A program made the translations under genes and the position numbers. Shown piece by piece: positions 5,369 to 37,167 of a stretch of DNA of 64,000 nt (position 1 is the stretch's first letter; each line of letters begins with the position of its first letter). The notes under the pieces are model-generated. The model was given only the letters and a program-made list of their open reading frames with translations, was not told the DNA's origin and did not search any database. Source of the stretch: Candidatus Bathyarchaeota archaeon A05DMB-2 (lineage in GTDB: Archaea > Thermoproteota > Bathyarchaeia > Bathyarchaeales > Bathycorpusculaceae); assembly GCA_018475625.1 (NCBI GenBank), contig JAAKEZ010000001.1, forward strand, positions 124,001-188,000, written 5' to 3'.

Positions 5369-6184
5369 ATGCAGACCCTCTTCACCGCAGCCCAAGTCAC
5401 TCTAACACTCGGCTTTCTCCTCTACGCCTCATGGAGCGACTACAAAACCCGAGAAGTAAGCAACCGCGTCTGGACAATCTTCGCACCCACAGCACTTACG
5501 CTGTCGCTGGCTGAACTGCTTCTCTACAACCCACAGAACCTAACATGGTTCGCAATAAGCTTCGGAGTCACAGCAGCCTTCGCCCTGCTTCTGTTCTACG
5601 CTGGAGGATTCGGAGGCGCAGACTCAAAAGCATTCATGTGCATCGCGCTTGCGCTACCATCCTTTCCGGAAACACTTGTCCACCCCCTCTTCCCAGACGG
5701 AGTTTCGCCGCTGGCGCAGAACATCTTCCCCTTCACAATTCTTAGCAACTCCATCCTCGTCGCAGCCGCAAGCGTAATCGCGATGCTCCTGCTCAATGCC
5801 AAGTGGCGCATAACCACGGGCAAGAAAATTTTTGAGGGCACACTTGCCGCGGAGCCTGCGGGGAAAAAAATCCTCGTGTTGATAACCGGCTACAAGATGC
5901 CCATCGCCAAGTTAAAGGATAAATGGCACGTTTACCCGCTTGAAGACGTGGTGGAAGAAGACGGAGAGAAACCGCCAAAAAGAAAACTCCTAATCGTACC
6001 CCGTGATGAGGGAAGAAGCGACGTAGTTGAGCGCCTATCTCGCGCTGCTGAAGCTGGAAAAATTGCCCCACAGGTGCTGGCTACGCCCGGTTTACCCATG
6101 CTCATATTCGTCACTGTCGGATTAGTCTTGGCGCTAGTGTTCGGAGACATCGTCTGGCTGGCAATCCGCTTTTTCCTAGGCTAA
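5369..6184 (+). CDS. Prepilin/preflagellin peptidase, A24 family
   Basis: A 271-residue integral membrane aspartic peptidase. The two catalytic aspartates are visible: D24 in SWSDYKTREVSN after the first helix, and D85 in the GGAD motif (GxGD-like, the form seen in PibD/FlaK proteins). About six hydrophobic segments follow, with a hydrophilic cytoplasmic domain at about residues 150-235 containing KPPKRK, and a last helix at the C terminus. This extended C-terminal part is typical of archaeal A24 proteins. It would cleave the class III leader of the pilin encoded just upstream, and the pair probably forms a transcription unit. Confidence 0.88.
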   Translation: MQTLFTAAQVTLTLGFLLYASWSDYKTREVSNRVWTIFAPTALTLSLAELLLYNPQNLTWFAISFGVTAAFALLLFYAGGFGGADSKAFMCIALALPSFPETLVHPLFPDGVSPLAQNIFPFTILSNSILVAAASVIAMLLLNAKWRITTGKKIFEGTLAAEPAGKKILVLITGYKMPIAKLKDKWHVYPLEDVVEEDGEKPPKRKLLIVPRDEGRSDVVERLSRAAEAGKIAPQVLATPGLPMLIFVTVGLVLALVFGDIVWLAIRFFLG

Positions 6185-11350: not shown

Positions 11351-11572
11351 TCTTCCACCTTGAGCCTAGATAGAAGCTATCAGCCTCTGCCAAATTGATG
11401 GCACAGGCGGTTAAAGGCGAGCCTCATCGCCCTTATCTCAGCAAAGGTGCGACCAAGCAATTAAGCATTTCTTCCCCAGTATCCACATTTCGATGGTGCG
11501 CAGGGGCGAATTATTAAAAGGCTTAAGAGAAATACCTGAGATAAAGAAGTGTACGTTAAGGATGGGCAAAAT

Positions 11573-18837: not shown

Positions 18838-18878
18838 GTCAAGAAAATTTGACCGAGGCTTCGTCAAGAAAACTTGAC
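18838..18878. promoter_or_regulatory. Tandem 16-bp palindrome pair upstream of NosD-type gene
   Basis: Two copies of the motif lie 25 bp apart (start to start): GTCAAGAAAATTTGAC at 18838-18853 (one mismatch in the palindrome) and GTCAAGAAAACTTGAC at 18863-18878 (perfect). They are followed by AAAAAACCCTTTATCC, a likely BRE/TATA region, and the ATG at 18926 is 47 bp further on. The same arrangement precedes the genes at 35158 and 37168. The position next to the TATA box suggests a site for an activator or for a repressor that blocks TBP/TFB. Confidence 0.7.
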
Positions 18879-18925
18879 AAAAAACCCTTTATCCGCCGAA
18901 TTCTCCCAATCTATGTGGGAACTTC

Positions 18926-34989: not shown

Positions 34990-35061
34990 TTTGGCTGTTT
35001 TCTGCGCCAATAACGATAGGCCCTCTATAGATTTCTGCAACAAACCAGCATAGACGCCAAA
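34990..35061 (-). repeat. 72-bp repeat element, copy 2 (inverted)
   Basis: The reverse complement starts TTTGGCG and ends AGCCAAA (six of seven bases inverted), as in copy 1. Bases 34999-35047 match 12970-13018 exactly on the other strand. The stem base GCGTC/GGCGC keeps pairing through a G-T wobble where copy 1 has GCGCC. The element is in the 328-bp gap 34830-35157 behind rpl10 and ends ten bases before the tandem palindrome promoter of the gene at 35158. The rest of the gap, 34830-34989, shows nothing further. Confidence 0.75.
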
Positions 35062-35070
35062 TATGATGTA

Positions 35071-35111
35071 GTCAAGAAAAATTGACTAAGACTTGGTCAA
35101 GAAACCTTGAC
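35071..35111. promoter_or_regulatory. Tandem 16-bp palindrome pair upstream of 35158 gene
   Basis: GTCAAGAAAAATTGAC at 35071-35086 and GTCAAGAAACCTTGAC at 35096-35111, again 25 bp start to start. They are followed by AAAAACGCTTTTTAG, a probable BRE/TATA region. The end of the second copy is 46 bp before the ATG, nearly the same as for the gene at 18926 (47 bp). This spacing conservation is the main reason to treat it as a functional site. Confidence 0.7.
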
Positions 35112-35157
35112 AAAAACGCTTTTTAGAAATATCCAGAGCAAAATTAGTTGATAACCC

Positions 35158-36264
35158 ATGAACAAGACGGTAGCGATTAAGAGCATTGTCTTTGCGACAA
35201 TTTTGCTTGCAAGCATTAGGGTAGTAGGCGGCTACACCCTCCAGTGGAAGAGCCAGAGCTTGGAGGTCAGGGAGCCCCTTGAAGTATTACCGAGCAATTC
35301 CGTTCTCAGCCTTTTTCCAGGCGAAACCTTACGGTTCAATGTCACCGTCGAGAACCACGCCTCCATCAGCTACAATGTTTGCTTAATATTTAGACTAAAC
35401 GATACTTACTACCAAGAAAGATACGTTTCTTTCAGCAACTGCGCCTATACGATTGAGCCGGGAGCACAAACCCTTGACGCTTGGCTCTCGGTTTCCAGCG
35501 CTGCACCAGCAGCCGAGTTGGAGCTGATCGTTAACATAACTCGCGACATAGAGCCAACGCCCGCGCCTTCGCCTCCAAGCAATTTAGCGCCTTCTTTAAC
35601 ACTGTTTGGCGCTGGGGCAAGATGGGCAGCTGGAAATGGCACTTCAGCGTTGTACATTAACTGGTATGATAACTACGTTGCACACCACTTTTCGGATGGG
35701 GCTGATTGGGGTCCTTACTGGAGAGAGAGGCAACTCGGAGAGATTAAGAACGTAACCGTTGATGTGTTGGAGCAGCAAGGCTTCGCAGTCACATGCGTCG
35801 GTGACATCCCAAGCGACATTTCAGGCTTTGACTTGGTTGTTTTTGAGGCTTGGTTCGCCATTGAACCCCAACATAGCCAAGTCGTGATGAATTACTTGGC
35901 GGGCGGCGGCAACGTTGTCATCATCGGCGGTGCACCCTGCTACTTCGCAACCTATTGCAAAGACATGTGGCCATATGTGTCGGGCGGTGAAAACCTTAGC
36001 GCAATAAGTGACTGGTTCGGCAGCGCGCAATTCGTGAACTCGGGCGGAACCGCCAGCTTGGTCGTGGACAAGCCTTTCGGCACCTCGCTGGAAGCCCGAA
36101 GCACGGTCTACCACATCGATGCATACGGCTGCTACTCGCTGGCAGCGATGAGCGAGAATGCGCAGGTCATTGCACGCTGGGGCAACGGCACAGGCTCGGT
36201 CTACGCCTTCGCCTACGAATACGGCAATGGAAGAGTCTACTATCAAGCAGAGATGGACTGGTAA
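35158..36264 (+). CDS. Secreted protein with amidotransferase-like (ThuA/GAT-type) C-terminal domain
   Basis: 368 residues with a signal peptide (hydrophobic about 9-24). The first half is a CARDB-like beta domain (FPGETLRFNVTVENHASISYNVC...) rich in N-x-S/T sites, then a PTPAPSPP linker. The second half looks like a class I glutamine-amidotransferase or ThuA-like alpha/beta fold: DLVVFEAWF, NYLAGGGNVVIIGGAP and a C-terminal YQAEMDW end. I do not see a clear Cys-His-Glu triad. It is probably anchored outside the cell through sugars or partners; there is no C-terminal membrane helix. The promoter carries the tandem palindrome. Confidence 0.75.
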   Translation: MNKTVAIKSIVFATILLASIRVVGGYTLQWKSQSLEVREPLEVLPSNSVLSLFPGETLRFNVTVENHASISYNVCLIFRLNDTYYQERYVSFSNCAYTIEPGAQTLDAWLSVSSAAPAAELELIVNITRDIEPTPAPSPPSNLAPSLTLFGAGARWAAGNGTSALYINWYDNYVAHHFSDGADWGPYWRERQLGEIKNVTVDVLEQQGFAVTCVGDIPSDISGFDLVVFEAWFAIEPQHSQVVMNYLAGGGNVVIIGGAPCYFATYCKDMWPYVSGGENLSAISDWFGSAQFVNSGGTASLVVDKPFGTSLEARSTVYHIDAYGCYSLAAMSENAQVIARWGNGTGSVYAFAYEYGNGRVYYQAEMDW

Positions 36265-37053: not shown

Positions 37054-37113
37054 GTCAAGAATTCTTGACTAGAAAAAGGATACTGCTGGTTTGTTTTGTC
37101 AAGAAATCTTGAC
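37054..37113. promoter_or_regulatory. Tandem 16-bp palindrome pair upstream of 37168 gene (wider spacing)
   Basis: GTCAAGAATTCTTGAC (perfect palindrome) at 37054-37069 and GTCAAGAAATCTTGAC at 37098-37113. Start-to-start spacing is 44 bp, not 25. The second copy is followed by GGAAACTTTTTTATCGCG, with the same T-rich element as the other two promoters, and the ATG is 54 bp beyond. No extra copy is visible between them. Confidence 0.65.
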
Positions 37114-37167
37114 GGAAACTTTTTTATCGCGCGAATGAACCAGTGGGAATAAAACTGGGGAACATCT

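Follow-up and report, generated by a model that had tools for sequence, protein, structure and literature searches.

Tandem palindromes as putative operators of a surface-protein regulon in Bathyarchaeia and a candidate membrane-anchored winged-helix regulator

Tandem palindromes of the type GTCAAGAAANCTTGAC almost certainly serve as operators for a distinct regulon, composed mainly of cell-surface genes, in one order of the Bathyarchaeia, which are abundant in sediments and hardly cultivated. Their likely reader is a membrane-anchored winged-helix protein of ca. 430 amino acids; the joint statement that such a regulon exists and is read by this protein appears probable, if a shade less firm. 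The evidence is drawn from sequence comparison and consists of the putative operators, their layout, the target classes, and the co-distribution and linkage of the sites with the regulator gene.

Palindromes and core promoters in the window

The window, i.e. the whole analysed stretch of 64 kb, contains six copies of the palindrome, four of them exact, and all six reside in three promoters (Table 1). A preliminary description of this DNA had assigned two 16-bp palindromes to each of these promoters, in two cases 25 bp apart and with the last copy 46–47 bp before the ATG. The measured values agree: the start-to-start spacings in promoters 1, 2 and 3 are 25, 25 and 44 bp, and the distances from the last palindrome to the ATG are 47, 46 and 54 bp, respectively. 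The T-rich TATA-like element described as abutting the last copy is found in each promoter 6–9 bp past it, and the products, previously taken to be exported, are of that type: a NosD/beta-helix protein, a protein devoid of a Pfam match and a coiled-coil protein. In 100 dinucleotide shuffles of the window, 0.01 exact matches to GTCAAGN4CTTGAC are expected against four present, and 0.26 matches with at most one mismatch against six. With up to two mismatches the count of seven barely exceeds chance (3.35 expected, seven reached in 3 of 100 shuffles), so that the strong tests within the window are those with none or one mismatch. An Rfam search of the window returned two matches only, a tRNA and, at 11364–11440 on the minus strand, the crcB motif (fluoride riboswitch aptamer), which scores above the Rfam gathering value.

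Table 1. Positions of palindromes, core promoters, genes and associated elements. Coordinates refer to the window unless a genome or locus is given.
Feature	Position	Strand	Basis or relative
Promoter 1, upstream palindrome GTCAAGAAAATTTGAC, 1 mismatch	18838..18853	+	
Promoter 1, proximal palindrome, exact, 25 bp from first	18863..18878	+	
Promoter 1, A-tract/BRE-like and TATA-like core aaaaaaccctttatcc	18879..18894	+	sequence; layout as in 68/79 clusters
Gene 1, exported NosD/right-handed beta-helix protein, 563 aa, with P/T-rich stretch and C-terminal hydrophobic segment	18926..20617	+	
Promoter 2, upstream palindrome GTCAAGAAAAATTGAC, 1 mismatch	35071..35086	+	
Promoter 2, proximal palindrome, exact, 25 bp from first	35096..35111	+	
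Promoter 2, A-tract/BRE-like and TATA-like core aaaaacgctttttag	35112..35126	+	sequence
Gene 2, exported-type protein, 368 aa, without Pfam family	35158..36264	+	site-bearing relative G001 L108 (45%)
Promoter 3, upstream palindrome, exact	37054..37069	+	
Promoter 3, proximal palindrome, exact, 44 bp from first	37098..37113	+	
Promoter 3, A-rich/BRE-like and TATA-like core ggaaacttttttat	37114..37127	+	sequence
Gene 3, exported-type coiled-coil protein, 212 aa	37168..37806	+	site-bearing relative G001 L047 (75%)
Candidate regulator, copy of the window's genome	G000:C103:121952-123250		
Homologues of the regulator's C-terminal domain without winged helix	L069 906-4005; L070 1924-3142; L115 1471-3898; L109 185-1424		
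CTCTATAGGTTTCTGCAANNAACCACTAATAGG repeat, examples	L313-L342; more diverged copy at window ~35020-35070		
ACTTTAACTCATACTCTACAGACATAGGTAA block	G024 L053, L057, L059, L067, L074, L081; G000 L036		

Distribution in genome, order and class

The genome to which the window belongs (G000; 2.48 Mb, 110 contigs, 96% complete) contains 13 exact sites, whereas the reversed control pattern is absent; the motif is thus not randomly spread in the genome, random spread being what the preliminary description had named as speaking against a regulon. Allowing one mismatch, the numbers are 28 and 7. By inspection the 28 sites form 18 clusters, about 14 of them promoter-like and four consisting of a lone site with one mismatch. 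The lone sites (C1:115545, C3:40634, C20:307306 and C107:10816) were discarded as chance matches having neither a partner nor a core-promoter layout, and they correspond to about the number that chance would give; the AAAN core is present at the first and absent at the other three. The AAAN core is likewise absent from the exact sites of G043 and G057.

Across the 162 genomes of the order, 353 exact sites (summed by hand) were counted in 52 genomes, compared with 12 of the control pattern in 11 genomes. At least two exact sites are carried by 39 of the 162 genomes, and the highest number in a single genome is 43. A class-wide search of 256 genomes for the motif followed by an A-tract, with at most one mismatch, identified 42 genomes, and outside the order it gave one genome with a single match.

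Promoter layout and spacing

The layout was quantified on 79 clusters anchored on an exact site in the fetched loci of nine Bathyarchaeia genomes, with unselected flanks. More than one palindrome is present in 62 of them, and 68 are followed by an A-tract and a TATA-like element as core-promoter flank, which is encountered at only 518 of 25,500 random positions (2%). The 72 palindrome spacings fall into just three classes, 25–26 bp (11), 32–35 bp (47) and 42–45 bp (14). The steps of ca. 9–10 bp correspond to about one helical turn and therefore place the sites near the same helical face.

The flank consensus was derived from another set of 102 clusters, 94 after removal of repeats, which had been chosen for an AAA...TTT(T/A) flank, and is biased to that extent; the position weight matrix of the sites is likewise limited by the mismatch rule used to define them. 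In this flank-selected set, the consensus past the last palindrome reads AAAAACSCTTTTA. Its ninth base is the first of the T-rich element, such that, in terms of position, 8 bp separate the proximal palindrome from the TATA-like element; the distance to the likely BRE is 2–3 bp. The consensus layout places the sites ahead of the TATA-like element, without overlap.

Target genes

An open reading frame of at least 60 residues starts 15–180 bp downstream in 83 of the 94 clusters and is lacking in the other 11. The first genes are exported-like in 73 of the 83 cases, compared to 44 of 186 background frames of at least 150 residues taken from the window and 17 loci of the same genome; start codons were guessed, and the underlying hydropathy rule (a 14-residue window of at least 1.9 near the N-terminus) also catches membrane proteins. 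Recurring classes are NosD/beta-helix, kelch and Ig-like proteins (all three assigned by Pfam) and coiled-coil proteins, and the ten first genes that are not exported-like include two regulators and three radical SAM genes. The members of the regulon are mostly of the surface type; a radical SAM/SPASM enzyme also belongs to it, as does, in part of the genomes, the candidate regulator itself.

In the window's genome, clusters outside the window precede Ig-like 'ANPY...PPEG', beta-helix and kelch proteins, an exported-type protein of 314 residues, and a radical SAM/SPASM gene whose start codon lies 126 bp from the last palindrome; further ones precede a surface gene that seems to be decayed (L040) and a region next to a regulator gene. 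The same layout at about 14 promoter clusters of this genome and the prevalence of exported-like first genes support the candidate regulon suggested from three promoters. The 'adhesion programme' proposed along with it is one possibility among several envelope functions and is unproven. The expectation that relatives keep the motif was borne out for two of the three genes: in G001, a genome of the same genus, the relatives of genes 2 and 3 have retained tandem sites with unchanged spacings of 25 and 44 bp, and for gene 1 the comparison extended to weak relatives (29–32%) at site-bearing G001 loci.

Two of the site-bearing genes show irregularities. The kelch gene at L044 5183-5233 (G000:C103) contains an in-frame TAG within the signal peptide, at a position occupied by serine in the G001 relative L106; pseudogenization, a sequence error or read-through are alternative explanations. 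At L040 ~5593-5900 (G000:C48), a signal peptide is followed by a short unrelated tail and the second palindrome is degenerate, so that the promoter appears to have degenerated in parallel with its gene.

Since 52 of the 83 first genes belong to one blastp component linked by shared domains, and some upstream stretches are themselves repeats, duplicated surface genes might simply have kept one ancestral promoter and not be regulated in common. We consider this very unlikely, because the layout is also found at genes outside the component (the radical SAM enzyme, a coiled-coil protein, the regulator and the 'VGVKKGDWIEY' family, which families f1 and f6 have in common), and because the palindrome has stayed near-perfect in two families although its spacings and flanks differ, an indication of selection. 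That the motif arose by chance or is of the repeat type, such as a REP element or an attachment site, has practically negligible probability. A separate dispersed repeat does occur upstream of some copies, but the controls are close to zero, the position is locked to promoters and one target class is enriched; chance as such is ruled out by the shuffle controls of the window and the reversed-pattern control of its genome.

A membrane-anchored winged-helix protein as candidate reader

In G010 and G002, sites are situated between a surface-type or membrane gene and the divergent gene of a protein of ca. 430 residues. All 16 members of its family scanned against Pfam match the ArsR-type winged-helix entries HTH_5, HTH_20 and DUF7347, above the gathering cut-offs in the members listed, and profile matches link the domain to PDB entries 1y0u (4e-5) and 1uly (0.001). 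According to hydropathy, each of the 69 family proteins with at least 400 residues contains exactly one hydrophobic segment, which starts between residues 80 and 130 and occupies residues 104–122 in the copy of the window's genome. The ca. 300 residues beyond this predicted transmembrane segment gave no convincing Pfam match, HAMP is not among the Pfam matches listed for the family, and a structure model from the single sequence is poor (pLDDT 36.8). Homologues of the C-terminal domain lacking the winged helix exist as open frames of 406–1033 residues in loci with sites (Table 1). The idea that this domain also recurs in products of the regulon was abandoned, as none of these homologues stands directly behind a site.

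Co-distribution of regulator and sites

Searches for the regulator scored a limited number of candidates per genome, at most ten over the order and at most six class-wide. Of the 39 genomes with two or more exact sites, 37 gave a family match above 300 bits (partial in G085 and G114), compared to 17 of the 123 others; the corresponding Fisher p of 5.5e-21 overstates independence because the genomes are related. One genome with a tandem site and no regulator match, G028, is 71% complete. Within the class, regulator matches with E<=1e-70 were recorded in 54 of 256 genomes, all of them in families f1 and f6, the two families holding the motif.

The correspondence extends to the recognition helix, for which counts were made by hand from the list of regulator genes. 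Among the 37 site-bearing genomes that gave a match, 31 possess a member with the motif SSS[HNY]L, that of G093 being split in two frames; the same holds for five of the 17 other regulator-bearing genomes, of which G084, G111 and G115 have one site each. In genus g18, SSSHL is found in G121, G122, G123 and G125, which carry 2–6 sites, and PSSHL as the only type in G018, G120 and G124, which carry none (p 0.03). In genus g12, at least two sites occur in all 11 genomes with an intact main-clade member versus 7 of 21 genomes without it (p 0.0004). Between most regulators of the PSSHL/PGSHL type and a divergent small gene lies a diverged site, e.g. GACAAGAAATCTTTAC with AAAAAC..TTTTAT.

Several genomes depart from this pattern. 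The remaining two of the five, G089 and G109, possess an SSSNL member and zero sites. G091 and G092, 95–96% complete and with six sites each, lack a family member; a query with the HTH domain retrieved from them only matches of 33–39% identity to other proteins, and the full layout is found at two (L251, L252) of the four loci inspected there. The six site-bearing genomes without a counted SSS[HNY]L member are G085, where the N-terminus is cut off, G094, G095 and G114 (2, 9 and 5 sites), whose intact members are of the STPHL or SSPNL type only, a further G114 copy being in two frames, as well as G129 and G130, the latter with 26 sites and a PGSHL-type member only.

Linkage of regulator, sites and neighbouring genes

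Linkage was evaluated for 70 regulator genes with at least 300 residues and a match beginning no later than query residue 20; fragments, the partial G085 copies and one partial G100 copy were excluded. A site with at most one mismatch is located within 200 bp upstream of 14 of them, distributed over 12 genomes, and such a site is absent upstream of the other 56, including both copies of the window's genome. The regulator fragment of G068 also has an upstream site, the only exact one of that genome. In G000 and G001, sites (three in G000) are found ca. 250 bp downstream of one regulator gene copy and point at it. The intervening stretch (L045 6250-6500 in G000; L158 in G001) is conserved and has no obvious open reading frame; the G000 sequence gave no Rfam match, and the stretch possibly corresponds to a regulated small RNA or an antisense transcript.

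In genera g2, g18, g24, g26 and g52, the regulator and a radical SAM/SPASM gene are oriented divergently, and sites lie between the two; a small gene stands first in this arrangement in g2, g18 and, judged by spacing, g24. In g42, the radical SAM/SPASM gene is placed behind three sites of its own ca. 4 kb from the regulator, and own sites of this gene are found in g1 and in G000 and G001. Most of these loci had been selected by way of the regulator; they therefore demonstrate linkage of regulator and enzyme and do not provide an unbiased count for sites and enzyme.

These data also bear on the possibility that, within a genuine regulon, the palindrome is recognized by some other DNA-binding protein, the membrane protein being just a frequent member that co-varies for this reason. 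Such a reader could account for G091 and G092 and for the many sites of G130, and DtxR-like, ArsR-like, TFB and Lrp-like proteins are indeed encoded near some sites, as exemplified, according to our sequence reading, by a DtxR-like protein in G053 (L103) and ArsR-like proteins of 322–328 residues behind sites in G114 (L245) and G093 (L253). Nevertheless, among the neighbour clusters the regulator family recurs in the largest number of genera (eight), some of those loci having been fetched because of it; in the 22 clusters listed, TFB is near sites in three genera at a median distance of 1.2 kb, and ArsR-like and Lrp-like neighbours appear in two genera each. Moreover, among loci fetched because of a site, the membrane protein directly adjoins the site in L105, L112 and L249 and is 250 bp off in L045. 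The lack of the SSS[HNY]L type also goes along with the lack of sites, fully in g18 and with exceptions in g12. We thus regard a different reader as unlikely and retain the membrane protein as the likely candidate for this role. In L105, a gene reading as transcription factor B (1292-2197; G010) adjoins the regulator.

Proposed mechanism

We infer binding by the candidate, its dimeric state, its topology and the signal as follows. The ca. 430-residue protein would be a one-component regulator with its N-terminal ArsR-type winged helix in the cytoplasm, a single transmembrane helix at residues ~104–122 and a C-terminal domain of ca. 300 residues and no known family, which is probably exposed outside the cell and may act as a sensor. 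Dimers of the winged helix are expected to bind each 16-bp palindrome, and neighbouring dimers might cooperate on one helix face, as permitted by the steps of 9–10 bp. Positioned directly upstream of the BRE, they would most likely help TFB/TBP to load onto the core promoter, such that a signal perceived by the outer domain would switch on the set of beta-helix, kelch, Ig-like and coiled-coil surface proteins.

Provided that the ca. 430-residue protein is the reader, it would probably activate rather than repress, as judged solely from the position of the sites. The alternative that the sites are repressor operators, at which the regulator would hold the surface genes off until a signal arrives, appears not very likely. 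The proximal palindrome is near enough to the likely BRE for steric effects, and members of the ArsR family are mostly repressors; however, the sites are placed upstream of the TATA-like element without overlap, and two or three of them are helically phased, as for cooperative recruitment. Archaeal activators, moreover, typically bind upstream of the BRE and repressors within the promoter or downstream of it, according to the available part of a published account (PMC5512572).

On a larger scale, the membrane-bound regulator might be part of an outside-in envelope circuit, in which a single-pass factor senses the surface and sets the repertoire of surface proteins via phased tandem operators, and in which paralogues with changed recognition helices read diverged operators. 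We advance this scenario tentatively, as a possibility that falls short of being probable. Through a shared operator read by such a protein, the composition of the cell surface could be adjusted in concert.

Relation to known systems

Neither a described operator with the palindrome sequence nor a described regulator–operator pair for Bathyarchaeia turned up in searches of the open-licence literature, in line with the preliminary remark on the operator. As far as described in the available part of PMC6396743, ArnR/ArnR1 of Sulfolobus acidocaldarius are membrane-bound one-component regulators with an N-terminal HTH, and the flaB promoter carries, in a 41-bp fragment upstream of BRE/TATA, two 15-bp inverted repeats (ArnR boxes) which are both needed for binding. 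The system proposed here shares the N-terminal HTH with a predicted membrane anchor, paired inverted repeats upstream of BRE/TATA, and surface targets. In the same source, ArnR consists of HTH, putative HAMP, sensor and two C-terminal transmembrane segments, whereas the candidate is composed of HTH, a single central transmembrane segment and a large C-terminal domain; the operators read TCGAC-N5-GTCGA and GTCAAG-N4-CTTGAC, respectively; and ArnR targets archaellum and pilus genes, in contrast to the many dispersed surface-protein genes found here. The proposed system would work like ArnR but is not a member, as the two-transmembrane architecture is absent and the operator differs.

Transmembrane transcription regulators (TTRs) are proteins that unite a predicted DNA-binding domain with one or more transmembrane regions, most often just one (PMC10269533, available part). 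Both features are predicted for the candidate, which thus falls under this definition, although TTRs constitute a topological class and not a homologous family; the accessible portion of that survey names no operator or regulon for Bathyarchaeia. Archaeal activators are described, in the part of PMC5512572 at hand, as binding upstream of the BRE and recruiting TBP or TFB. EarA at the fla operon of Methanococcus maripaludis, thought to help recruit TFB, resembles the present case by several sites directly upstream of an A-rich BRE in the promoter of a surface structure, but has four 6-bp sites at, as far as described there, one operon instead of 16-bp palindromes in a dispersed regulon (same source). 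In the candidate, the ArsR-type fold (HTH_5/HTH_20, DUF7347; 1y0u, 1uly) is joined to both a membrane anchor and a large C-terminal domain.

The analysis thereby provides a concrete candidate pair of regulator and operator for which between a handful and several tens of target genes can be listed per genome. Next to ArnR, it adds another probable case in which surface genes are controlled from the membrane. The SSSHL, PSSHL, PGSHL and STPNL paralogues in genomes with and without the operator form a natural series in which the co-change of an archaeal winged helix and its operator can be read.

Repeats near the palindromes

A separate repeat of very roughly 90 bp around CTCTATAGGTTTCTGCAANNAACCACTAATAGG was searched in five genomes with up to three mismatches (control 0) and detected at 26 places in G000, 46 in G001, 10 in G002, 18 in G024 and one in G130. 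This upstream block ('module I') was initially considered as part of the operator; the view was rejected because the repeat occurs independently, 2 of the 26 listed copies being closely followed by a palindrome. The RNA fold of the repeat composite is not notable (z +1.05). At seven loci (Table 1), a second conserved block, ACTTTAACTCATACTCTACAGACATAGGTAA, precedes the palindromes at a distance of up to ~60 bp.
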